Positions 14,396-28,675 of a stretch of DNA of 40,719 bases are shown piece after piece. Source of the stretch: an uncultured Bacteroidota bacterium (GTDB lineage: Bacteria; Bacteroidota; Bacteroidia; 2-12-FULL-35-15); NCBI GenBank assembly GCA_903870175.1, contig CAIQBY010000048.1, positions 1 through 40,719 on the forward strand, in the 5' to 3' direction. The first letter of the stretch is position 1, and every line of letters begins with the position of its first letter. The position numbers and the translations under genes were made by a program. The notes beneath the pieces were generated by a model. That model saw only the letters and a list, made by a program, of their open reading frames with translations, ran no database searches and was not told the origin of the DNA.

Positions 14396-14413
14396 CAGTG
14401 AGTTTTATCACTG
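14396..14413. promoter_or_regulatory. CRP/FNR-like palindrome upstream of 14480
   Basis: CAGTGA-GTTTTA-TCACTG, perfect 6+6 inverted repeat with TGA-N6-TCA core. Confidence 0.4.
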
Positions 14414-14479
14414 TTATTTTTGATAAACCTCATCGGTTGGCTATAGAATTTACTATAATATTGCAGAAAAATAAAGAAA

Positions 14480-15085
14480 ATGGAAACTACAACTAAGTCA
14501 ATTACCGATAGTGTAATTGAAGGATTAAAAAAAGCAATTTCGGAACTGGAAGAGTTCCGTTTGCAACTTGCACTTGGCAAAGCCGAAGCAGAAGATAAAT
14601 ATGAAGAAGCAAAGAAAAATTTCAATGAAATTATTTCTGACTTCAAAATAAAACTTAGTGAAGGTAATGCAAAGGCATCCGAATTGAAAGCAAAACTGGA
14701 TGAACTTATGGTTCAGCTTGCCTTGGGAAAAGCAGAAACAAAAGATGTTTTTGATGAACAAAGAAAGAAAATTTCTAAAGCAATTCAGGAAATTGAAAAC
14801 TTTATACTTAACAATCCTTTGGGAATTAAACTTGAATCGAAACTGAAACTGGAGCTGGAGAAATTTAAAATCAAGATGGAAATTCTTCATCTTCGTTACA
14901 CTCTTGGTAAAATGGATGTGAAAGATAAATTTGAATCTCAAAAGAAAGAATTCGTTAAGAAAATGGAGGATTTGAAACATACTTTTTCTAAACACGAGCC
15001 TGAATTGAAAGAGAATTTAGAGCATTTTAGTAAAGAGATGAACGAGGCAATTAAACATCTAAAAAATGCGTTTGTAAAACATTGA
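14480..15085 (+). CDS. Helical coiled-coil protein with three internal repeats
   Basis: FRLQLALGKAEAEDKYEEAKKNF / MVQLALGKAETKDVFDEQRKKI / LHLRYTLGKMDVKDKFESQKKEF. Confidence 0.85.
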   Translation: METTTKSITDSVIEGLKKAISELEEFRLQLALGKAEAEDKYEEAKKNFNEIISDFKIKLSEGNAKASELKAKLDELMVQLALGKAETKDVFDEQRKKISKAIQEIENFILNNPLGIKLESKLKLELEKFKIKMEILHLRYTLGKMDVKDKFESQKKEFVKKMEDLKHTFSKHEPELKENLEHFSKEMNEAIKHLKNAFVKH

Positions 15086-15341
15086 ACCAATCTCTTGGTT
15101 ATTACTTAGGTGAAGAAGCCGCCCATAATGCAATAAGAAAGACGAGCATTGATTGGTAACATATCCAATGAATCCATCACAAACCGGCTTATTTTGCTAA
15201 TGGAAAAAAATCACAAAAGACATTGTTAACAAATTGAAACTAGAAATGCTCCGCTTGATTGTGACAGATAGTAAAGCGAGAGCAGAAGATTTGGAAACTG
15301 AAGGTTGAATTTTGAGAAGCCTATCTTTAATCCAAATAAAA

Positions 15342-15371
15342 AAGTCCTGAAGAAATTCAGGGCTTTTTTTA
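15342..15371 (+). terminator. Intrinsic terminator
   Basis: AAGTCCTGA-AGAAAT-TCAGGGCTT followed by a T-tract. Confidence 0.75.
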
Positions 15372-15585
15372 TTGTTTTTATTGTGCGCTATTGCAGGAAT
15401 AAAATTTAGAAAATGCAGAATTATAAATAGAAACAGGAAATATTTAATTTTTAAATACTGTTGTATCTACTGCAAATACTGACATTCCAATTGCTGGTCT
15501 GTCTAATTTTTTTGCTCTCTGAAAAAGTTGATTCCTCCCAATAAAACCAAAGAGTGATGATGGGAGTGCCTAAAATCACTGCTGT

Positions 15586-15603
15586 CGTTGATTTACTTCA
15601 TTT
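15586..15603. promoter_or_regulatory. CRP/FNR-like palindrome upstream of the adhesin operon
   Basis: GTTGA-TTTACT-TCATT (core 15589-15600), 29.5 nt centre-to-start upstream of GACTTTTG (15624-15631). Confidence 0.35.
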
Positions 15604-15679
15604 CGTGGCTATTGTTTCCTTTCGACTTTTGTGGCATAAAATAATTCAAACAATTAAAATCACATTAATAAATAATAAA

Positions 15680-16093
15680 ATGAAAACACAGGATAAAGTA
15701 ATAGGGATGCTAATCGGAATCATACTAATTAATATAAGTATTACTACAATACTTATTGCAAAAAGTAATAATGCTTCAAATTTTGTTTCATCTGACAAAA
15801 CAAGTGTAGACGCGTATAACCTTTTTATTGCAGATGATGCAAACGTAAATATACAGGTAGTAAAAAATGGTGGAGACACAAATCTTCAGATTTCTTTTAA
15901 TGGAAACGAAGGCAGTACCGGAATGTTTTCCATTTACAATGCCTCCAATCAATTGATAACAGAGTTTCAAATTGATTTGAAACAGGTGCCTAATTATGCA
16001 AGTATAAATCTAACCGAATTTGCATCAGGAACTTATACTTGTAACCTTACAACATCAGTAACTGTGAATCTTTCGCATTTTACAATTAATTAA
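15680..16093 (+). CDS. Small exported protein with T9SS-like C-terminal sorting region
   Basis: Start moved from 15554 to 15680 (MKTQDKVIGMLIGIILINISITTILIA); C-terminus FASGTYTCNLTTSVTVNLSHFTIN resembles type A sorting tails. Confidence 0.65.
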   Translation: MKTQDKVIGMLIGIILINISITTILIAKSNNASNFVSSDKTSVDAYNLFIADDANVNIQVVKNGGDTNLQISFNGNEGSTGMFSIYNASNQLITEFQIDLKQVPNYASINLTEFASGTYTCNLTTSVTVNLSHFTIN

Positions 16094-16132
16094 TAATATT
16101 TCTAAAATACAGGTCACTATAAAAAATAAGTC

Positions 16133-19100
16133 ATGAAAAAGTTCATATTCTCTATCGCATTATTATCAATTGGATTAATATCTTATGCCCAATTGATAAC
16201 ACCATTTTCAATACGTTACACGGTAACACAGAAAGGTGATATAGTAATTATAGGTAACACAGCCACTAACTGCGGAACAGGTTCTTCCTGCACTAACGGC
16301 AACTGCGCAACAGCACATGCCGAAATGCCGCCACATGGATTAGCGGTAGATAATGATTTTATAAATACTTATATTGATATAGATAATGATGCATCTACAT
16401 TTATGTCGAGCAGCGACAGTTTGAATCTGCCATTTTGCAGCCAGATAACTTTTGCAGGATTATATTGGGGTGCAGGCGGAACTGTTGGCGACCCTGATGG
16501 TTCACACTGGGCAACAAGAAACACATTGAAATTAAAATTAAATAATGGTGCATATCAAACTCTTACTGCTGATGCAACTTACGATAATAATACAGGATAT
16601 AAATCCTACCATAATTTTAAAAACATTACAAGTTTAGTTTCTGCTGCAGGAATAAAAGGACGATACACCATAGCAAATATGCCTATTCTAAATGATAACG
16701 GCACAACCAAAAACCGTTGGGGAGGATGGGTAATAGTTGTTGTTTTTAAAAATGACTTGCTTGCACAGAAAAATTTAACTGTTTTTAATGGCTTGACAAA
16801 TGTGTCGGCAGCTAATACCACATCGGATTTGCCAATAAGTGGTTTTTTTACTCCACCTACAGGACCCATAAGTCTTGAATTAGGTTTAGTGACTTATGAT
16901 GGTGACAGAGGTGTTGATAATACATGTACAAATATCTACAAAGGAGATTCTCTTTTGTTTAAAAGTGCAGGAGGTTTCGTTCCAATATTTGATGCGATAC
17001 ACCCAAAGAATGATGTTTTCAATAGTACTATTTCTTATAATGGAGTATTGACACCTTTCCGAAACCCCAGTTTTAATAATACATTAGGGCATGATGCTAA
17101 TATATTTATTCCTGATAATTCCACAAAAAATTATATCAGTAACAGTGCAACAACTGCTATTCTGCGCCAAAAAACAGGTGGCGAAACTTATTTAACTCAG
17201 GTGGTAACCACAGCCATAGATGTATATGAACCTGATTTGCGCGGAGGTCTGAATGTTGTTGATTTGAATGGAGGCGTGACTAATCCCGGTGATACATTGG
17301 AATATACAATGGTTATAAAAAACATTGGGTCCGACCCATCAGTCAATACATATGTACTCGACACACTTCCGCCAAGTGTAACTTTTGTTCCCGGTTCAAT
17401 ACGCATTACTGCTGGTCCTAATGCAGGTTATAAAACAGATGTAACTGGTGATGATCAGGGAGATTTTTTCACTTCAGCAAAATCTTTGAAAATAAGAATC
17501 GGAACAGGAGCCAATGGTGCCACTGGTGGCGAGGTGAATAATATTCCTCCTTTTGCTGACAGTACGCAAATTAAATTTAAAGTAGTAACCACTAATAATT
17601 GCACCATTTTACTTTGTAATAATATTATTCAGAACAGATTTTGGGTAGTAGGTACAGGAAATTATTCGGGCAATACTTATAGTAATGGAAGCAATATTAA
17701 TATTCTGGACAAGAATGGCTGTCCTCTTTCAGGAACCACCAATACATTGATAAGTGCTACAGTATGCGCCGGACCAACTGCTTCATGCAATTCAAATATC
17801 TGCGTTGGAGGCACAATACATTTATCAGTTCCTGCCGTTTCAAATGCAACTTACACTTGGAGCGGTCCTGATGGATTTACATCAACAGTACAAAATCCTG
17901 TTATTACTAATGCAACATTGGCTATGGCTGGAACATATACAGTAATTATAAGTTCATTGCCTAATTGTAATTATGCAACAACAACTACAGTTATTGTAAA
18001 CGCTCCTCCTGCAACACCTATTGTCAGCAGTAATTCACCTGCTTGTACTAATAGTAATATTAATTTGAGTACAGCAACAGTTTCTGGAGTAACTTATAAC
18101 TGGTCAGGACCAAACGGATTTACATCAACGAATCAAAACCCTGTTATTGCTAATGTTTCAACTGCAATGGCAGGAACTTATAGTTTAACATTAACCAACA
18201 ATACTACGGGATGTACTAGTAGAACAGGAACCACCGCGGTAACAATATTGCCATTGCCGATTGCACCAACTGTAAGCAGCAACTCTGCCGTATGCGAAAC
18301 CGCAACAATCAATCTGACTGCAGGAACAATGACAGGAACAAGTTATTCATGGACAGGACCAAACGGATTTACATCAACTGATCAGAATCCGATTATTCCA
18401 AATGCTACTCTTGCAATGAATGGTGTCTATAATTTAATAGTAACCGATGCAGCTACAGGATGTGCTTCCGTTAACGGAACAGGAACAACAACAGTTGTTG
18501 TAAATCCATTGCCAATAGCGCCGACAGTTACCAGCAACTCTGCTGTATGCGAAACTGCAACAATCAGTCTGACTACAGGAACGATGACTGGTACAACATA
18601 CTCCTGGACAGGACCAAACGGATTTACATCCACAGATCAGAATCCGATTATTCCAAATGCTACTCTTTCAATGAACGGTGTCTATAATTTAATTGTTACC
18701 GATGCGGCTACAGGATGTGCTTCCGTTAACGGAACAGGAACAACAACAGTAGTTGTAAATCCATTACCGGTTGCACCTTCAATAAGCAGCAACTCTGCTG
18801 TATGCGAAACTGCAACAATCAGTCTGACTACAGGAACGATGACTGGTACAACATACTCCTGGACAGGACCAAACGGATTTACATCAACTGATCAGAATCC
18901 GATTATTCCAAATGCTACACTTGCAATGAACGGTGTCTATAATTTAATTGTTACCGATGCAGCTACAGGATGTGCATCCGTTAATGGAACCGGAACAACA
19001 ACAGTTGTTGTAAATCCATTACCGATAGCGCCGACAGTAAGCAACAACTCTGCCGTATGCGAAACCGCAACAATCAATCTGACTGCAGGAACAATGACAG

Positions 19101-20725
19101 GAACAAGTTATTCATGGACAGGACCGAACGGATTTACATCAACTGATCAGAATCCGATTATTCCAAATGCTACTCTTGCAATGAACGGTGTCTATAATTT
19201 AATAGTAACCGATGCAGTTACAGGATGTGCTTCCGTTAACGGAACAGGAACAACAACAGTAGTTGTTAATCCATTACCGATAGCACCAACCGTAAGCAGC
19301 AACTCTGCTGTATGCGAAACTGCAACAATCAATCTGACTGCAGGAACAATGACTGGAACAAGTTATTCATGGACAGGACCAAACGGATTTACTTCAACAG
19401 ATCAGAATCCGATTATTCCAAATGCTACTCTTGCAATGAACGGTGTCTATAATTTAATTGTTACCGATGCAGCTACAGGATGTGCATCCGTTAATGGAAC
19501 CGGAACAACAACAGTTGTTGTAAATCCGTTACCAACTGTAACAGCTAATACATCTTCAACAAATATATGTGATGGTTCAAGTATAACATTAACAGGAAGT
19601 GGCGCTACAAGTTATAGCTGGACAGGAGGAATTACCGATGGACTATCATTTATTCCATCATCATCAGGAACTTATATAGTAACAGGAACCGACATTAATG
19701 GCTGTAGTAACAGCGCATCTGTAAATATTATTGTAAACCCTCTACCGTTAGTTATTGCCAACGAGTCCTCAGCAATAATATGCAAAGGCTCAAGTCTAAC
19801 GTTAACAGGAAGCGGTGCTTCAACCTATATCTGGACTGGTGGCGTAACAGATGGTATTTCATTCGCGCCTTTAACAAGCGGAACTTATACTGTAATAGGT
19901 ACTGATGAAAACGGCTGCAGCAGCACTGCATCAATAAGTGTTACGGTTGATATCCTTACTGTAACAGCAAACGCATCCTCCACAAGCATTTGTCATGGTT
20001 CATCAATCACATTGACAGGCGGCGGTGCATCAACTTATAGCTGGACAAATGGTGTAACAAATGGCGTAGCGTTTATTCCTGAAACAACAGCAAGTTATAC
20101 CGTAACAGGTACTGATGAAAATGGATGCACAAATACATCTTCAGTAAGCGTTTCTGTTGAGGCACTTCATACTGTTGATTCTATTCCAAACCAGATTTTA
20201 TGCAGCAATTCCAATACTGTTGCAATTGAATTCACCGGTAATAGTGAAAGTGGTTTCGACTGGACAAACAGTAATACTTTAATTGGCTTAGCATCAAACG
20301 GAACCGGCAATATCGCCTCTTTTACAGCAACAAACCCGGGACCAAGTCAAATTGTAGCAACTATAACCGTAACTCCAATTGCAAACGAATGTCCTGGCGT
20401 AAGCACCAGTTTCACTATCACTGTAAATTATTGTCTTCATATTGAATTCTTCATTCCCGAAGGCTTTTCACCGAACGGTGATGGTATCAACGACTTATTT
20501 GTTATCAGAGGAATTGATAATTACCCGACAAATAAATTCGTAATCTTTAACCGTTGGGGTAATAAAATATATGAAGCTAGTCCTTACCAAAATAAATGGG
20601 ATGGAACTACATCGTTGGGATTAACCGTTGGAGGCAATGAATTACCAGTCGGTACATATTTCTATATTCTTGATTTAGGTGACGGCTCTGACATAATTAA
20701 AGGAACAATTTATCTTAATAGATAA
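16133..20725 (+). CDS. Large SprB-like adhesin: DUF11 region, Ig-like repeats, T9SS type B C-terminal domain
   Basis: Signal peptide; DUF11 motif (LRGGLNVVDLNGGVTNPGDTLEYTMVIKNIG); many Ig-like repeats; C-terminal EGFSPNGDGINDLFVIRGIDNYPTNKFVIFNRWGNKIYE...GTIYLNR. Confidence 0.92.
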   Translation: MKKFIFSIALLSIGLISYAQLITPFSIRYTVTQKGDIVIIGNTATNCGTGSSCTNGNCATAHAEMPPHGLAVDNDFINTYIDIDNDASTFMSSSDSLNLPFCSQITFAGLYWGAGGTVGDPDGSHWATRNTLKLKLNNGAYQTLTADATYDNNTGYKSYHNFKNITSLVSAAGIKGRYTIANMPILNDNGTTKNRWGGWVIVVVFKNDLLAQKNLTVFNGLTNVSAANTTSDLPISGFFTPPTGPISLELGLVTYDGDRGVDNTCTNIYKGDSLLFKSAGGFVPIFDAIHPKNDVFNSTISYNGVLTPFRNPSFNNTLGHDANIFIPDNSTKNYISNSATTAILRQKTGGETYLTQVVTTAIDVYEPDLRGGLNVVDLNGGVTNPGDTLEYTMVIKNIGSDPSVNTYVLDTLPPSVTFVPGSIRITAGPNAGYKTDVTGDDQGDFFTSAKSLKIRIGTGANGATGGEVNNIPPFADSTQIKFKVVTTNNCTILLCNNIIQNRFWVVGTGNYSGNTYSNGSNINILDKNGCPLSGTTNTLISATVCAGPTASCNSNICVGGTIHLSVPAVSNATYTWSGPDGFTSTVQNPVITNATLAMAGTYTVIISSLPNCNYATTTTVIVNAPPATPIVSSNSPACTNSNINLSTATVSGVTYNWSGPNGFTSTNQNPVIANVSTAMAGTYSLTLTNNTTGCTSRTGTTAVTILPLPIAPTVSSNSAVCETATINLTAGTMTGTSYSWTGPNGFTSTDQNPIIPNATLAMNGVYNLIVTDAATGCASVNGTGTTTVVVNPLPIAPTVTSNSAVCETATISLTTGTMTGTTYSWTGPNGFTSTDQNPIIPNATLSMNGVYNLIVTDAATGCASVNGTGTTTVVVNPLPVAPSISSNSAVCETATISLTTGTMTGTTYSWTGPNGFTSTDQNPIIPNATLAMNGVYNLIVTDAATGCASVNGTGTTTVVVNPLPIAPTVSNNSAVCETATINLTAGTMTGTSYSWTGPNGFTSTDQNPIIPNATLAMNGVYNLIVTDAVTGCASVNGTGTTTVVVNPLPIAPTVSSNSAVCETATINLTAGTMTGTSYSWTGPNGFTSTDQNPIIPNATLAMNGVYNLIVTDAATGCASVNGTGTTTVVVNPLPTVTANTSSTNICDGSSITLTGSGATSYSWTGGITDGLSFIPSSSGTYIVTGTDINGCSNSASVNIIVNPLPLVIANESSAIICKGSSLTLTGSGASTYIWTGGVTDGISFAPLTSGTYTVIGTDENGCSSTASISVTVDILTVTANASSTSICHGSSITLTGGGASTYSWTNGVTNGVAFIPETTASYTVTGTDENGCTNTSSVSVSVEALHTVDSIPNQILCSNSNTVAIEFTGNSESGFDWTNSNTLIGLASNGTGNIASFTATNPGPSQIVATITVTPIANECPGVSTSFTITVNYCLHIEFFIPEGFSPNGDGINDLFVIRGIDNYPTNKFVIFNRWGNKIYEASPYQNKWDGTTSLGLTVGGNELPVGTYFYILDLGDGSDIIKGTIYLNR
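18263..19537. repeat. Five in-frame tandem 255-bp (85-aa) repeats in the adhesin gene
   Basis: Unit starts at 18263, 18518, 18773, 19028, 19283; unit AP(T/S)(V/I)...NSAVCETATI.LT.GTMTGT.YSWTGPNGFTSTDQNPIIPNATL.MNGVYNLIVTDA.TGCASVNGTGTTTVVVNPLP. Confidence 0.95.
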
Positions 20726-20761
20726 TAACATTAGTAATTACAATTATTAAATATAAAAAAA

Positions 20762-21703
20762 ATGAAAACGTTCAATAAAATAGCATTCTTAATGGCTCTT
20801 GCACTTAGCGGATTAACCATGAATGCACAGCAGGATGCAATGTACACCCATTATATGTATAATACATTGGTAGTAAATCCCGGTTATGCAGGTAGCAGAG
20901 ATGCACTCACTGTTACCGCGCTCGACAGGTCGCAATGGGTCAACTTCAATGGCGCTCCCATAACACAGACTTTAACAATGCATACCCCGCTGCTCAATCA
21001 GCATATCGGAATTGGGTTATCTGCAATGAATGATAAAATTGGTCCTGTAAATAATTCTTCTGTATTTGTTGATTTTGCTTACATTATGAAGCTTACCGAA
21101 AAATCAAAATTAGCTTTAGGATTAAGTGCCGGTGCTGATATTTTACAGGCAAATTTGAACACATTAAAGTTGGATGAACAAACCGACCCTGTATTTCTTA
21201 ACAATATAAATCATCGTGCAACGCCTAACTTCGGCTTTGGTGCTTATTATTATAGAGAACGTTTTTATGCAGGTGTTTCAATTCCGAATATGGTTGAAAA
21301 TAATTATTCGGCAATTGATGAACCCAATGGAAATACGCTCGTTGGAAAGCAAAGCAGACATTATTTCTTCATCGCCGGCACAATGATAAATTTAGGCGAC
21401 AACGTTGGTTTTAAACCTACAACTTATGTAAAAGTAACAGCCGGAGCACCAGTCGAAGCTGACCTTACAGCATCATTCATTTTTATGAAAAAGTTATTGG
21501 TCGGTGTCATGTTTCGTACTGGTGACGCTTTCGGAGCCTTGGTCGGTGTTGATATTAATGACCAGTTCCACGTTGGTTATTCTTACGACTGGTCTTACGG
21601 TCTTCAAACTTTCAAGTATAATCAGGGAAGTCATGAAATTGTATTAAGGTATGATTTTATATTCTTCGACAAGAAAAGAATTCGTTCACCAAGATATTTT
21701 TAA
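20762..21703 (+). CDS. PorP/SprF family T9SS-associated membrane protein
   Basis: NAQQDAMYTHYMYNTLVVNPGYAGSRDALTVTALDRSQWVNFNGAPITQTLTMHTPL. Confidence 0.93.
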   Translation: MKTFNKIAFLMALALSGLTMNAQQDAMYTHYMYNTLVVNPGYAGSRDALTVTALDRSQWVNFNGAPITQTLTMHTPLLNQHIGIGLSAMNDKIGPVNNSSVFVDFAYIMKLTEKSKLALGLSAGADILQANLNTLKLDEQTDPVFLNNINHRATPNFGFGAYYYRERFYAGVSIPNMVENNYSAIDEPNGNTLVGKQSRHYFFIAGTMINLGDNVGFKPTTYVKVTAGAPVEADLTASFIFMKKLLVGVMFRTGDAFGALVGVDINDQFHVGYSYDWSYGLQTFKYNQGSHEIVLRYDFIFFDKKRIRSPRYF

Positions 21704-21724
21704 TCATTTTAAAATCTTAAAATC

Positions 21725-23728
21725 ATGAAAAAGTTAATTATTCCCGCACTCTTAATTATAGGGATAGGTTTTAATGTTATTGCTCAAAAAAAATCAATGG
21801 ACATTAATAGTATAATGGAAAATAATCCTAACACCGGCACAGTTGCTGCTCAGCAAAAGTCCGATAAGGAATTGAAAGCTGATAAATTTTATTCAATTTA
21901 CGCTTTTGATAAAGCAATTGATAAATATGTTCATACCAAAAATTTAACTACCGAAGGTCAACGAAGACTCGCCGAAAGTTACCATAAAAGGGACATGAAT
22001 ATTCAGTCCGAAATCGCATATTCAAAATTAATCAACTCCAATAATGGCGTAATACCTGATGATTTTTACAACTACGCAATGGTTCTAAATTCAAATGGCA
22101 AATACGACCAGTCTAAAATATGGATGGAAAGATTCAAGGATTTAAAACCCAACGACCTTCGTGCGAAAAATTATGCAGCCAACAATGCTGAACTTAATAA
22201 TTTATTAAAAGATGATGGAAAGTATAAAATTTCACATCTCGATTTGAACACTGATGCCGAAGATTTTGGCACTTGTTATTATAAAAATAAAATAGTCTTC
22301 TCTTCAAGCCGCGAAACACCCAAACTTATTGAACGAAAATACAATTGGAACAATAAACCCTTTCTCGATATGTATGTGTCCGAAGTGGATGGTGACCAGT
22401 TGAAAAAACCCGAAAATTTTAGTAAGATTTTGAATTTTAAATGGCACGACGGTCCCGCAAGCTTTAGTAATGACGGCAACTTTATAGCTTTTACAAGAAA
22501 TGATTACGATGGTGCAGGCGAAGATGGTATTGTAAAAATACAACTTTATTTCAGTACTTTTAAAGATGGACAATGGACAAAACCCGAAAGTTTTCCTTTC
22601 AATAATAAAAATTATTCTGTCGGTCATCCTTGTTTGACATCCGATGGAAATACCCTATACTTTGCTTCCGATATGCCCGGAGGATACGGAGGAGCAGATA
22701 TTTACAGAGTTACAAAAGATGAAAAAGGAAACTGGAGTACACCCGAAAATCTTGGCGACAAAATTAATACTGAAGGTGATGATATGTTCCCTTTTTTTGA
22801 AGAAAACAGCGAAGTATTATTCTTCTCGTCCAACGGACGTATGGGTTTAGGAGGATTAGACAACTTTGTATGTGCCGTCAATGGAAAAGAATTTGGTAAA
22901 GTAAGAAACATGGGATATCCTGTAAATACACAATATGACGACTTTGCACTTATTATTAACGACAAATTTGCAAAAGGATATTTTTCATCTAATAGAGTAG
23001 GTGGCAAAGGCGATGACGATATATATTCCTACGAATTATTGAAAGGGCTCGATATTGGAAAACGCCTGAAAGGAGTTGCCAAAGATAACTCCGGAAACCC
23101 AATTCCACAGGCATTTATCCAATTGCTCGACAATACCGGCAATGTCATTGATACACTCACTGCCAGTGATAAAGGAGCATATTCTTTTTTGATTGATAGC
23201 GACAGAAATTATAAACTAATAGGCAAAAAGCCTGCATACATTGAAGGAGAAACACCTGTAAATTCTTTCGGAAAAGAATTCGTTTTATTTGCCGATATTA
23301 CACTCGATAAAATTCCTGAAACAATAGCAAAGAAAATTGAAGTAGGTGCCGATTTAGGAAAAATCATTTCATTAAAACCCATCTATTTCGACTTTGATAA
23401 ATATGATATTCGACCCGATGCAGAAATAGAATTAAAACAGATTGTAAAGTATATGAATGCATATCCCAACATGGTTGTAGAGCTTGGTTCACACACTGAT
23501 TGCAGAGGCATCAAAGAATATAATCAGGTTTTATCCGACAAAAGAGCAAAGGCCTCAGCCGAATACATCAAAGCAAGAATCACCAATCCCGAACGCATTT
23601 ATGGCAAAGGATATGGTAAATCAAAATTGGTGAATAACTGCGCCTGCGATGCCAATCTTGTTTCTTATTGTACCGAAGAACAGCATCAGTTGAACAGACG
23701 CACGGAATTTGTTATTATTAAAAAGTAG
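21725..23728 (+). CDS. OmpA-family protein with TPR-like, PD40 and carboxypeptidase-regulatory-like regions (PorE-type architecture)
   Basis: PD40 motifs (GHPCLTSDGNTLYFASDMPGGYGGADIY); OmpA C-terminus YFDFDKYDIRPDAEIELKQIVKYMNAYPNMVVELGSHTDCRG...DKRAKASAEYI. Confidence 0.92.
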   Translation: MKKLIIPALLIIGIGFNVIAQKKSMDINSIMENNPNTGTVAAQQKSDKELKADKFYSIYAFDKAIDKYVHTKNLTTEGQRRLAESYHKRDMNIQSEIAYSKLINSNNGVIPDDFYNYAMVLNSNGKYDQSKIWMERFKDLKPNDLRAKNYAANNAELNNLLKDDGKYKISHLDLNTDAEDFGTCYYKNKIVFSSSRETPKLIERKYNWNNKPFLDMYVSEVDGDQLKKPENFSKILNFKWHDGPASFSNDGNFIAFTRNDYDGAGEDGIVKIQLYFSTFKDGQWTKPESFPFNNKNYSVGHPCLTSDGNTLYFASDMPGGYGGADIYRVTKDEKGNWSTPENLGDKINTEGDDMFPFFEENSEVLFFSSNGRMGLGGLDNFVCAVNGKEFGKVRNMGYPVNTQYDDFALIINDKFAKGYFSSNRVGGKGDDDIYSYELLKGLDIGKRLKGVAKDNSGNPIPQAFIQLLDNTGNVIDTLTASDKGAYSFLIDSDRNYKLIGKKPAYIEGETPVNSFGKEFVLFADITLDKIPETIAKKIEVGADLGKIISLKPIYFDFDKYDIRPDAEIELKQIVKYMNAYPNMVVELGSHTDCRGIKEYNQVLSDKRAKASAEYIKARITNPERIYGKGYGKSKLVNNCACDANLVSYCTEEQHQLNRRTEFVIIKK

Positions 23729-23747
23729 AGTTCTTTGTTTTATTCAA

Positions 23748-23779
23748 AACACCATTCTGAAATAGAATGGTGTTTTTTT
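23748..23779 (+). terminator. Intrinsic terminator of the adhesin operon
   Basis: AACACCATTCT (23748-23758) / AGAATGGTGTT (23764-23774) followed by a T-run. Confidence 0.85.
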
Positions 23780-23847
23780 ATTTCTGTAATAAGTAATAAT
23801 TACAAACCATTTACATTTCTTAAATAGTGATTAAAGCCTCCTCTTAT

Positions 23848-23893
23848 AGTGATTAAGTTCATTGGTTCCAATTCTCTTTACAAATTACTTTTG
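23848..23893 (+). promoter_or_regulatory. CRP/FNR-like site plus promoter upstream of 23930
   Basis: AGTGA-TTAAGT-TCATT (core 23850-23861); TTG 23862-23864; TACTTTTG 23886-23893. Confidence 0.45.
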
Positions 23894-23929
23894 CAACTGA
23901 TAATTAATAAACAAATAAAAAATAAAATC

Positions 23930-24811
23930 ATGAAAAAGTATTTAATTTTATTCGGAATTTCCGCACTATTGGCTTGCAACACAGGAGTTAAAAAACATAC
24001 TGTACTCGAAGATAGTTTGGCAAATGTGAATGGAGGAATCAGAAACGAAAATCAAATAAAGGATTCTCTTCTTCATAACAAAGAAGCCGCACTTGACGAA
24101 TTTGTTGCGTCTTTCAATGAAATACAGGATAATCTGAACCAAATTAAGGAAAAGGAAAAAATCATTTCTATAAGTTCAAAAGGTTCTGAATTTAAGAAGT
24201 CGAGCAAAGACCAGATTATAAGCGACGTTCAATCTATCTATGATTTATTAGGCAAGAATAAATTAAAAGTTGCAAATCTTAGCAAAAAGTTAAAAGATTC
24301 CAACATAAAAATTGATGATCTTGATAAGGCAATAAACAACCTTTCTGTTCAGCTAACAGATAAAGAGACAGCAATAACCGACTTGAAAAGCCAGCTTGAG
24401 AAACTTAATGTTGATTTTAAAAATCTTAAAATGGAGTATATAGAAGAGAAACAGGAATCACAATTAAAAACAGAAAAGTTGAATACTGCATATTATGTTG
24501 TTGGCACTACAAAGGAACTTAAAAAGAATGGCATTGTTACCAAAGAAGGCGGTTTTATTGGCATTGGCAGAGTAACTGAGTTGAGCAATTTAAATCCAGC
24601 TTATTTTACAAAGATTGATATTACTCAAGTTAAGGAAATTCCAGTGTCGGCAAAGAAAGTGAAACTTATTACCAATCATCCCGAAACATCATATAAAATG
24701 GTGGAAGGAGCAAATTCAATTATTAGAATTGATATAACCGACCCTGAACAATTCTGGAGCATTTCAAAATACTGCATCATTACTGCCGATAAAAAGGAAG
24801 GTGCCGAATAA
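23930..24811 (+). CDS. Coiled-coil lipoprotein (293 aa)
   Basis: Start moved from 23849 to 23930 (MKKYLILFGISALLACNTG lipobox); central heptad-rich region. Confidence 0.8.
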   Translation: MKKYLILFGISALLACNTGVKKHTVLEDSLANVNGGIRNENQIKDSLLHNKEAALDEFVASFNEIQDNLNQIKEKEKIISISSKGSEFKKSSKDQIISDVQSIYDLLGKNKLKVANLSKKLKDSNIKIDDLDKAINNLSVQLTDKETAITDLKSQLEKLNVDFKNLKMEYIEEKQESQLKTEKLNTAYYVVGTTKELKKNGIVTKEGGFIGIGRVTELSNLNPAYFTKIDITQVKEIPVSAKKVKLITNHPETSYKMVEGANSIIRIDITDPEQFWSISKYCIITADKKEGAE

Positions 24812-24851
24812 ACAAATTAGTCAAAAGTAATAACCAAGGTCAATAAAGTTC

Positions 24852-24895
24852 TTGATTTTAATCACTCTAGATTTGGAGTGATTAACGTTATTTTG
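24852..24895 (+). promoter_or_regulatory. FNR-like palindrome plus -7-like element upstream of the pps pseudogene
   Basis: TTGAT-TTTA-ATCAC (24852-24865), centre 29.5 nt upstream of TTATTTTG (24888-24895). Confidence 0.4.
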
Positions 24896-24933
24896 CATAT
24901 CCGTTTAAAAATCAAATTAAATAATACATAATA

Positions 24934-27350
24934 ATGAAAAAATATAATCCTGACAAGCCGTTTGAATTAATAAAAAAGTTCAAAAATATTTCGGTGAATG
25001 ATGTAGCCATTGTCGGCGGCAAAAATTCTTCCTTAGGGGAAATGTTCAGTAACCTGAGTGTGAAAGGAATCAATGTTCCTGACGGATTTGCAACTACAAG
25101 TTATGCTTATTGGAAATTTCTTGACGATAATAATATCAGGAAAAAACTAATTGAATTGATGAACAAGCTTGATAAAAAAGCCTTCACAAATCTTAAAGAA
25201 ACTGGTGCCGCAGCTCGTCAATTAATTCTGAATTCTGAAATTCCCGATGAACTGAATAAAATAATTACCTCCGAATATAAAGTTTTATATAGCAATAAAG
25301 AATTGGGAGAAGTGGCGGTAAGAAGCAGTGCAACAGCAGAAGACTTGCAGGGCAACACGAATCTTTCCTGAATATAAAAGGAATAGACAATGCTCTTGCT
25401 GCTGTAAAAAAATGTTATGCTTCCTTATTTACCGATAGAGCAATAAAGTACAGGGAAGACAATGGTTTCGAACACATGAAGGTTGCTCTTTCAATAGGAA
25501 TTCAGAAGATGGTAAGGTCGGATATTGCCAGTTCAGGGGTTTGTTTTACGCTCGAACCGGAATCGGGTTTTACTGATATTATATTAATTACCGGCATATG
25601 GGGACTTGGCGAAAACATTGTGCAAGGGGTTGTTTCACCTGATGAATTTCTTGTTTTCAAACCGACATTAAAGTTGCGAAAGAGAGCAATAGTAAACAAG
25701 AAAATCGGAAGCAAGGCATTGACAATGGTTTATAGTGATACTGATGGAAAAACCGTTATCAATATTGATACTCCGGCAAAGAAGCGAGAATTGTTCGTGT
25801 TGAATGATGAAGAGATTGCAACTCTTGCAAAGTGGGCTCTGATAATAGAAGAACATTACGGAAAGCCCATGGATATTGAGTGGGCGAAGGATGGAATTAC
25901 AAATGAATTGTTTATTGTTCAGGCTCGCCCGGAAACAGTTCAGAGCAGAAGGAACCCTTTTATCCTGAAAGAATATAAGTTATTGACGAAAGGAAAATTG
26001 CTGGCAGAAGGATTATCTGTAGGAAATAAAATAGCAACCGGCAAAGCTCGTTTCCTTGAATCGCCTACTGATGCTGATAAATTGCGCCCGGGTGAAATAT
26101 TAATAACTGAAATTACAAGTCCGGATTGGGACCCGATATTGAAAAGAGCAGCAGCAATTATTACAAGTAAAGGCGGACGAACAAGTCATGCTTCCATTGT
26201 TGCCAGAGAGATTGGCGTGGCTGCAATTGTTGGAACAGGTGATGATGTATTGAAAATAAAAGATGGCGATGTGATTACTGTTTCCTGCGCTGAAGGCGAG
26301 AAAGGATATATTTACGAAGGAGAACAAAAGTGGACGGAAAAGGTAATTGATTTCAGAAATATAAAGATGCCTGAAACAGAACCTATGTTGATATTGGGCG
26401 ACCCGGACAGAGCATTTCAATTATCCTTTTATCCGAATAAAGGAGTAGGTTTAATGCGGCTGGAGTTTATCATCAGCAATGCAATTAAAATTCATCCGAT
26501 GGCATTGGTTAAGTTCAATGAATTGAAGGATGACAACATTAAAAATGAAATTGATGAACTCACTCATCATTATCTGAATAAAAAAGAATATTTCTCTGAT
26601 AAGCTTGCACAGGCAGTGGCAACAATCGCTTGCGCCTTTTATCCTAAAGATGTAATAGTGAGGATGAGTGATTTTAAAACAAATGAATATTCCAATTTGA
26701 TTGGCGGAAAAGATTTTGAGCCGGAGGAAGAAAACCCAATGCTTGGTTTCAGAGGCGCTTCCAGGTATTACAGCGACAGATATAAAGAAGGTTTCCGATT
26801 GGAATGTGAGGCAATGAAAATAGTGCGTAATCAAATGGGATTAACAAATGTGAAACTCATGATTCCTTTCTGCAGAACTGTGGAGGAAGGGAAGAATGTG
26901 ATAAACATTATGGAAAAATATGGATTGAAACGTGGTGAAAACGGGTTAGAGATTTATGTGATGGCGGAGATTCCGAGCAACATTATTTTAGCTGAAGAAT
27001 TTGCAAAAGTATTTGACGGTTTTTCCATTGGTTCAAATGATTTGACACAGCTGACACTTGGTATCGACAGGGATTCTACCATTATAAGCAGTTTGTTTGA
27101 TGAACAGAATGCAGCTCCGAAAAAAATGTTTGAAATGGTAATAAACACAGCTAAAAAATGCAATAAAAAAATCGGTTTATGCGGACAGGCACCAAGCGAC
27201 CATGCCGAATTTGCTGCGTTTTTGGTGGAGCAAGGCATAGATAGTATTTCTTTTACACCTGACGCTTTAATCAAAGGCATTGAAAACATTAATAAAGCAG
27301 AGGAGAAAATGAAAATGGATAAAAAAGAAATGAAACCGCTGAAAGTATAA
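24934..27350 (+). pseudogene. ppsA: Phosphoenolpyruvate synthase, interrupted by a frameshift near 25348
   Basis: ORF 24934..25371 ends VAVRSSATAEDLQGNTNLS*; another frame continues from 25350 as GQHESFLNIKGIDNALAAVKKCYASLFTDRAIKYRE... into ORF 25476..27350 (GGRTSHASIVAREIGVAAIVGTGD). The expected PDASFA segment is missing. Confidence 0.9.
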
Positions 27351-27520
27351 TAATATAATTTATGAAAATCATCCGTTAATTGGATTTAGATGTTGAAACC
27401 GTTGTTATAGGAAATCAAATTCAAATAGAATCTTTGAATTTGCGTAAGAATTGAAGATTTTTAATCTGAAAAGTAAAGAATATTTATTGAAACCACACCT
27501 CGGAGGGCATATAAACCGTA

Positions 27521-27566
27521 ATATGATATAAGTCATATAATGAGAGCAGGCAGACGAATATCTTTG
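27521..27566 (+). promoter_or_regulatory. CRP/FNR-like palindrome plus -7 element upstream of the desaturase
   Basis: ATATGA-TATAAG-TCATAT (27521-27538), centre 29.5 nt upstream of TATCTTTG (27559-27566). Confidence 0.5.
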
Positions 27567-27586: not shown

Positions 27587-28675
27587 ATGAAGACAATAAA
27601 ATTCGTTTCGCACGACAAACAACAACATGATTTTGCAGCAGCAGTGCGTAAAAACGTACATAATTATTTTGCCGAAAGGGGGCTTTCAACCAAAGGAAAC
27701 ACTCAAATAGTAATTAATACAATTGTAATGTTGATATTATATGTCGGTTCTTTTGCACTGCTTTTTATGGTAAAAATGAATCCCTGGATTGCATTTATTA
27801 TGTCCGTAATTATGGGTATCGGTTTGGCAGGCATTGGTATGGGAACAATGCACGATGCCGTACACCATGCGTATTCAGGCAAAGAATGGATAAATAAATT
27901 ATTTGGCGGAACACTTTATTTAATAGGAAGCAATGTTTTTAATTGGGAAATTCAGCATAATATTTTGCATCATACTTACACAAATATTGATGGATACGAC
28001 CAGGATATTGAATCGAAAGGACCGATACGATTGTCGGAACATGCACCGCTCAAAAAGATTCATAAATATCAATACATTCATGCTTTTTTCTTCTATGGAA
28101 TGATGACCATTTCAAAATTGGTGAAAGATTTTTCCCAATTAATAGTCTATAATAGAGAAGGAATTACGAGGCGATATAATTTTAATCCGACAGTTGAATA
28201 TATCAAAATGGTTATACTTAAACTACTTTATTTATTTGTAATAATCGGATTGCCGATTATATTTACCACATTGACGTGGTGGCAGGTTGTAGTAGGGTTT
28301 TTGCTGATGCATTGGACAGCCGGTTGTATTTTAAGTGTGGTATTTCAAATGGCACATGTTGTAGAAGGGACGGAAGAACCGATGCCTGACGCAGAGGGAG
28401 TTATCCCAAATGATTGGGCCGTTCATCAATTGCGCACTACATCCGACTTTGCAAGACATAATCATTTCCTTAACTGGTATGTTGGCGGTTTAAACTTTCA
28501 GATTGAACATCATTTGTTTCCAAATATTAGTCACGTGCATTATCCTAAAATTGCACCTATTGTTGAGAAAACTGCAAAACAATTCGGTTTTGATTACAAT
28601 TTAAAACCGACATTTCGAAAAGCATTTATGTCGCATGTCCGCAGGTTAAAATTGTTAGGACAACCCGCTATTTAA
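27587..28675 (+). CDS. Membrane fatty acid (acyl-CoA) desaturase
   Basis: Histidine boxes HDAVHH, HNILHHTYTN and FQIEHHLFPNISHVHYPKIAPIVE. Confidence 0.93.
   Translation: MKTIKFVSHDKQQHDFAAAVRKNVHNYFAERGLSTKGNTQIVINTIVMLILYVGSFALLFMVKMNPWIAFIMSVIMGIGLAGIGMGTMHDAVHHAYSGKEWINKLFGGTLYLIGSNVFNWEIQHNILHHTYTNIDGYDQDIESKGPIRLSEHAPLKKIHKYQYIHAFFFYGMMTISKLVKDFSQLIVYNREGITRRYNFNPTVEYIKMVILKLLYLFVIIGLPIIFTTLTWWQVVVGFLLMHWTAGCILSVVFQMAHVVEGTEEPMPDAEGVIPNDWAVHQLRTTSDFARHNHFLNWYVGGLNFQIEHHLFPNISHVHYPKIAPIVEKTAKQFGFDYNLKPTFRKAFMSHVRRLKLLGQPAI

Follow-up and report, generated by a model that had tools for sequence, protein, structure and literature searches.

Palindromic sites at fixed distances from TAnnTTTG promoters predict a genome-wide CRP/FNR-type regulon in an uncultured Bacteroidota bacterium, with a receiver-fused CRP/FNR protein as its likely activator

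We analyzed a DNA stretch of 40,719 nucleotides (nt), here called the window, on contig CAIQBY010000048.1 of assembly GCA_903870175.1 from an uncultured Bacteroidota bacterium, in which five consecutive transcription units are each preceded by palindromes of the type TGA-N6-TCA and a TAnnTTTG-like -7 element. The number of nt between palindrome and box is here called the gap; gaps of 23 or 24 place the centre of the palindrome 29.5 or 30.5 nt upstream of the box (class II sites) and a gap of 45 places it at 51.5 nt (class I sites). Judged from sequence, the five promoters are predicted to be part of a genome-wide regulon of an activator of the CRP/FNR type. An earlier note on this DNA had proposed a local regulon shared by these units, of which the sharing agrees with the results below but not the local character, as the sites were found genome-wide.

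Scanning the window on both strands with one box mismatch allowed, we found the four class II sites and the single class I site of that note again, all exactly where it had placed them. The first unit encodes a coiled-coil protein of 201 amino acids (aa) without Pfam match (14480..15085; this and all genes and -7 elements listed here are on the + strand, unless said otherwise) and has a perfect palindrome CAGTGA-N6-TCACTG at 14396..14413, with its core at 14399 and at gap 45, centred 51.5 nt from the box TAATATTG (14456..14463, one mismatch). It had been taken to have this class I site alone, which did not hold: the palindrome TGATAAACCTCA (14421..14432), 22 bp from the class I site, lies exactly 23 nt from the same box, so that class I and class II sites stand in tandem at this promoter and none of the five units lacks a class II site. 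The next palindrome, TGATTTACTTCA (15589..15600, gap 23, centre 29.5 nt), with the -7 element GACTTTTG (15624..15631, one mismatch), stands 5' of a type IX secretion adhesin operon of four genes (15680..23728), with a weak Por_Secre_tail match in the first product (15680-16093), Ig domains and CHU_C in the second (16133-20725), PorP/SprF in the third (20762-21703) and OmpA/PD40 in the fourth (21725-23728). It is followed by TGATTAAGTTCA (23850..23861, gap 24, centre 30.5 nt) with the box TACTTTTG (23886..23893), upstream of a putative lipoprotein of 293 aa having a coiled-coil region and no Pfam match (23930..24811). A gene for a phosphoenolpyruvate synthase or PPDK-like protein (pps), in two frames within 24934..27350, is preceded by TGATTTTAATCA (24853..24864, gap 23, centre 29.5 nt) and the box TTATTTTG (24888..24895, one mismatch), and a fatty acid desaturase gene (27587..28675) by TGATATAAGTCA (27524..27535, gap 23, centre 29.5 nt) and the box TATCTTTG (27559..27566). 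As the earlier note had also stated, the window scan gave no such site upstream of rpsT or alaS. The window contains 18 copies of the TGA-N6-TCA core when this is taken alone, so that it is the spacing that carries the information, as had been argued; with gaps of 23 or 24 and at most one mismatch, the + strand of the window has 5 sites against a mean of 0.3 in block shuffles.

The coupling between palindrome and box was then evident throughout the assembly of the window, comprising 3.95 Mb, when searched for TGA-N6-TCA followed by TAnnTTTG over ranges of spacing. Between gaps of 9 and 39 nt there were 83 matches, with 22 at gap 23, 10 at gap 24 and 1.76 per gap elsewhere (p ~4e-20), and between 34 and 60 nt the sole peak was found at gap 45, with 14 matches against 1.88 (p ~1e-8, or 4e-7 when corrected for 27 gaps). 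Genome-wide, the coupling thus peaks only at gaps 23/24 and 45, which are exactly the two geometries (29.5/30.5 and 51.5 nt) noted earlier in the window, and with the other spacings as control this gives an enrichment of 32 class II sites against 3.5 expected and 14 class I sites against 1.9. The -7 element of TAnnTTTG-type promoters starts near -11 or -12, and the palindromes would therefore be centred at about -41.5 and -63. The bases preferred between the half sites were T/C, T, A, A, A and A/G. Only 3 of the 32 peak sites were situated inside open reading frames (ORFs) of at least 100 aa, as compared with 12 of 23 off-peak matches (Fisher p 7e-4), and one of the three, at 23850, lies in a mere upstream extension of the lipoprotein ORF in the window. 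A gene start just downstream was seen at 21 of 32 peak sites versus 10 of 23 off-peak matches, which is a higher proportion without the difference being significant. No -33 TTTG signal was seen at class II promoters, but the comparison set lacked one as well.

Conservation in relatives, a check named in the earlier note, was found both for the coupling and for individual sites. Matches with gaps of 22-25 were present in 36/36 genomes of the genus and were mostly far above those of a reversed-pattern control, with a few genomes not exceeding that control (e.g. 5 vs 5 in G026). Upstream of desaturase orthologues the site recurs, again with a gap of 23, in four relatives, these being G032, G022 (where the box has one mismatch), G034 and the metagenome locus L037; it was not kept in the closest orthologue, in G020, nor in G011 or in more distant homologues. 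Upstream of the pps orthologues of G016, G033 and G001 there is a gap 23 site, having one box mismatch, together with a second palindrome 22 bp upstream.

Genes found downstream of the peak sites included the CcoNO fusion of a cbb3 oxidase, preceded by a small CcoS-like ORF; an operon containing a c-type cytochrome, which was NorC-like by eye and gave only weak cytochrome c matches in NCBIfam; a further cytochrome c; a pair of 2-oxoacid:acceptor oxidoreductase genes; a protein near benzoyl-CoA reductase subunit C (just under the cut-off of that family); an acyl-CoA-ligase-like protein with a second dehydratase-type protein behind it; and NadA, a flavin reductase and a universal stress protein. 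Taken together, these are low-oxygen, redox and respiration genes. At three loci of the same genome (L023, L042 and L057) we also noted sites 5' of genes resembling those for benzoyl-CoA reductase or 2-hydroxyacyl-CoA dehydratase and of a gene for a DUF2889 protein, which suggests an anaerobic CoA-thioester pathway.

Six proteins with an HTH_Crp_2 domain are encoded in the genome, namely two having a response regulator receiver fused to the CRP/FNR domain (here REC-CRP; L001 and L003), two that are FNR-like (L002 and L004) and two others. REC-CRP consists of Response_reg, cNMP_binding and HTH_Crp_2 domains. Its receiver has the residues that a response regulator requires for its phosphorylation, with D9, D52 and K104 in 30/30 sequences and Thr or Ser at position 82 in 30/30, and Glu and Arg of its recognition helix are likewise invariant (30/30). 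The Arg with which CRP reads GTGA is absent at the corresponding position, so that REC-CRP fits a TGA half site. It has a single Cys, beside the phospho-Asp, and not the four Cys that hold the [4Fe-4S] cluster of FNR, and its output part is cNMP_binding with HTH_Crp_2 and not the LuxR-type output of FixJ.

The anatomy of the REC-CRP operon was informative with regard to the likely binder. On contig C166, a PAS histidine kinase gene (401 aa) and a REC-CRP gene (352 aa) adjoin a divergent metal-ATPase gene, CcoI-type by eye, at about 7 kb from ccoS-ccoNO. Tandem sites with gaps of 45 and 23 are found there 5' of the kinase gene, with one box mismatch, and, having exact boxes, 5' of a universal stress protein operon directly behind REC-CRP and of the cbb3 genes. 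The arrangement recurs in most of the fetched REC-CRP loci of the genus, and in many genus genomes such tandem sites are found upstream of the downstream operon and often also of the kinase gene. At locus L174 (6980-7140, - strand), between the metal-ATPase and PAS kinase genes, the two palindromes TGAGGTCGGTCA and TGACTTTCGTCA, spaced 22 bp apart, have gaps of 45 and 23 to a TATTATTG box, and an additional exact box is situated at gap 45 from the second palindrome. Beyond the genus, REC-CRP relatives were found in 32 of 198 genomes sampled from the phylum, all in the class of the window (31 of 48 others sampled, plus the genome itself); counted by genus, 27 of the 103 sampled in the phylum have them. 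Class-wide, a class II site (gaps 22-25, at most one box mismatch) was located 5' of a neighbouring gene at 16 of 29 REC-CRP loci, of which 10 are exact and 6 are paired with a gap 45 site. The neighbours carrying these sites encoded universal stress proteins and proteins that were lactate-dehydrogenase-like or HemN-like by eye. That sites accompany the regulator gene in different families argues more strongly than any other finding for REC-CRP as the protein that binds them. The PAS domain of the kinase had its PDB matches mostly among the heme oxygen sensors DosP and FixL. The heme-ligand His of these sensors is kept in all of the wider-class kinases with a confidently aligned PAS domain and the FixL Arg in most of them, and in some kinases the segment is nearly that of FixL (HIIGIGREV).

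We infer from these findings a mechanism in which a dimer of the CRP/FNR fold would bind TGA-N6-TCA and, when centred 29.5-30.5 nt upstream of TAnnTTTG (about -41.5), act as a class II activator, joined at some promoters by a second dimer that lies upstream by exactly another 22 bp (about -63), in a class I position on the same face of the helix. The main activator would most likely be the response regulator REC-CRP, which would receive its phosphate from the PAS histidine kinase of the adjacent gene and act at low oxygen or reduced respiration; that is, a fused FixJ/FixK-like activator would become phosphorylated by a FixL-like, possibly heme-containing kinase as oxygen falls. The FNR-like proteins L002 and L004, with cysteines of the iron-sulphur type, possibly act on the same sites. 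We regard such a REC-CRP and PAS kinase pathway, resembling FixL-FixJ-FixK with the roles of FixJ and FixK fused, as the probable and best explanation of the sites, with oxygen inferred as its signal. The earlier note had proposed one common CRP/FNR activator, and the assignment to that family stands; the activator itself is likely, on the strong indications given above, a REC-CRP fusion response regulator and not plain CRP or FNR, and the two FNR-like proteins may share its sites.

The sites could instead be primarily FNR boxes of L004 and L002, sensing oxygen through an iron-sulphur cluster, with REC-CRP as a minor partner. L004 aligns from end to end with an FNR of known structure, every cluster-ligand Cys position included, and contains CX2CX5C plus a fourth Cys, thus the four-Cys [4Fe-4S] ligand set; L002, having CX2CX4CX5C, also matches FNR, and both share its recognition helix E-x-x-S-R. 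Site number moreover correlates with the count of CRP-family genes other than REC-CRP. We nonetheless consider this reading unlikely, as the sites are concentrated near the REC-CRP operon in different families, L004 lacks a close orthologue within the genus (best identity 31%), and the peak stays in the three genomes G012, G034 and G020 that have REC-CRP only (54 vs 12.2, p ~1e-18; strongest in G020 with 28 vs 4.6), with REC-CRP presence here and below counted from open-frame length and among the matches listed. Five genomes without REC-CRP among the matches listed gave a weak signal (28 vs 14.9, mostly from G013 and G027), and over the 36 genomes the median number of site matches per Mb was 5.3 with and 2.0 without REC-CRP among the matches listed (p 3e-4).

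A carbon regulon of the cAMP-CRP kind, in which the palindromes would be class I and II sites of a nucleotide-sensing CRP, would account for TGA-N6-TCA and for the class I/II geometry, both shared by CRP, as well as for the presence of pps, a gene of carbon flow, and of the cNMP_binding fold in REC-CRP. The targets are however respiratory and anaerobic. REC-CRP has Thr, Ser, Lys, Pro or Asn at the position of CRP Arg180, so that an additional contact to the G of GTGA would not be expected, and the 32 sites showed no GTGA preference; the cAMP contacts Glu72 and Arg82 of E. coli CRP were, by eye, not kept either. An E. coli-like cAMP-CRP was disfavoured on these grounds and seems very improbable. 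Chance, in AT-rich DNA that is rich in palindromes and boxes, could produce the 18 cores in 40 kb, but not readily histograms that peak at specific gaps (p ~4e-20 and 1e-8) or the conservation of sites, and was rejected as having a practically negligible probability. Among known motifs, HcpR2 was considered and also rejected. HcpR and HcpR2 belong to the CRP/FNR family, as do the proteins here, and are present in Bacteroides, with an HcpR2 regulon restricted to hcp genes in most Bacteroides (PMC1274295); the HcpR2 motif, GTAACnnnnGTTAC, differs from the one found here.

Returning to REC-CRP as main activator at low oxygen, several observations weigh against it. G013 and G027, lacking REC-CRP among the matches listed, keep a weak peak, and the Spearman correlation with site number was 0.63 for the count of other CRP-family genes and 0.59 for REC-CRP; since the former correlates equally well, sharing of the sites is likely. 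No clear neighbouring class II site was seen at the REC-CRP loci L177, L178, L181-L183, L187, L191-L193 and L199. In the window, the boxes at 24888, 15624 and 14456 are each one base off the consensus. The desaturase itself needs oxygen, so that 'anaerobic' cannot be the whole story, and the conserved His and Arg of the aligned PAS domains do not prove heme.

Among described systems the FixLJ-FixK2 cascade of rhizobia (PMC6710368, PMC6515984) has the same parts, i.e. a PAS histidine kinase, a receiver domain, a CRP/FNR-fold activator and a cbb3 oxidase target, and the kinase found here also keeps the heme-pocket His and mostly the Arg in its PAS domain. Unlike that cascade, receiver and CRP/FNR domains are here joined in one protein, without a LuxR-type output, and the promoters are of the TAnnTTTG type. 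FNR of E. coli and Aliivibrio (5E44, 8QTO) has TGA-N6-TCA half sites, class II and I positions and low-oxygen targets in common with the present system, whose genome has two FNR-like proteins of its own, whereas REC-CRP has no N-terminal Cys cluster and a receiver domain instead. The class I and II promoters of E. coli CRP similarly place the activator at either of two set positions, separated by two turns of the helix, but here these are fixed in relation to the TAnnTTTG -7 element and a response regulator is the likely activator. A study of CRP/FNR regulons in metagenomes, with Bacteroidota-type bacteria among those covered, relied on matrices from E. coli and the Bacteroides MalR. In an open-access literature search, which was not exhaustive, we found no paper describing this FNR/CRP motif, its geometry or the REC-CRP regulator in Bacteroidota-type bacteria.

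Few regulators or motifs have been described for global low-oxygen control in Bacteroidota-type bacteria, and the present analysis gives a testable motif, a rule for the activator positions on TAnnTTTG promoters and a candidate master regulator, which would permit prediction of the regulon from sequence alone in many uncultured genomes. With somewhat better than even confidence, we suggest that much of one Bacteroidota-type class relies on one master pathway for low oxygen, whose response regulator is itself the CRP/FNR activator. At TAnnTTTG promoters it would act from the fixed positions -41.5 and -63, on its own operon and on neighbouring respiratory and stress operons, and in this lineage it would also have recruited the type IX secretion adhesin operon and the fatty acid desaturase. 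The product of 16133-20725 has 1530 aa, combines Ig domains with a type IX secretion signal (CHU_C) and is encoded in operon with PorP/SprF and OmpA-like proteins; with a predicted low-oxygen site in front of this operon, the control of type IX secretion adhesins by environmental conditions would be a matter worth attention.

Some further features were seen around the second REC-CRP gene and in the window. The second gene, L003 (L045 9035, L175), is found near a multi-PAS kinase, a receiver-only protein and an AraC-like protein, and class II sites are located 5' of several of these genes. Searching the genome's own contigs with the desaturase gave two loci only. The palindrome of pps has a gap of 23 also to an exact TACTTTTG box on the - strand (24829-24822), directed antisense into gene 23930, possibly a bidirectional or antisense promoter. 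The first pps ORF (24934-25371) stops within PPDK_N, the rest being found in 25476-27350 with a part of the domain missing in between; relatives have intact copies with open frames of about 800 aa, and the split gene may be a pseudogene or an assembly error.

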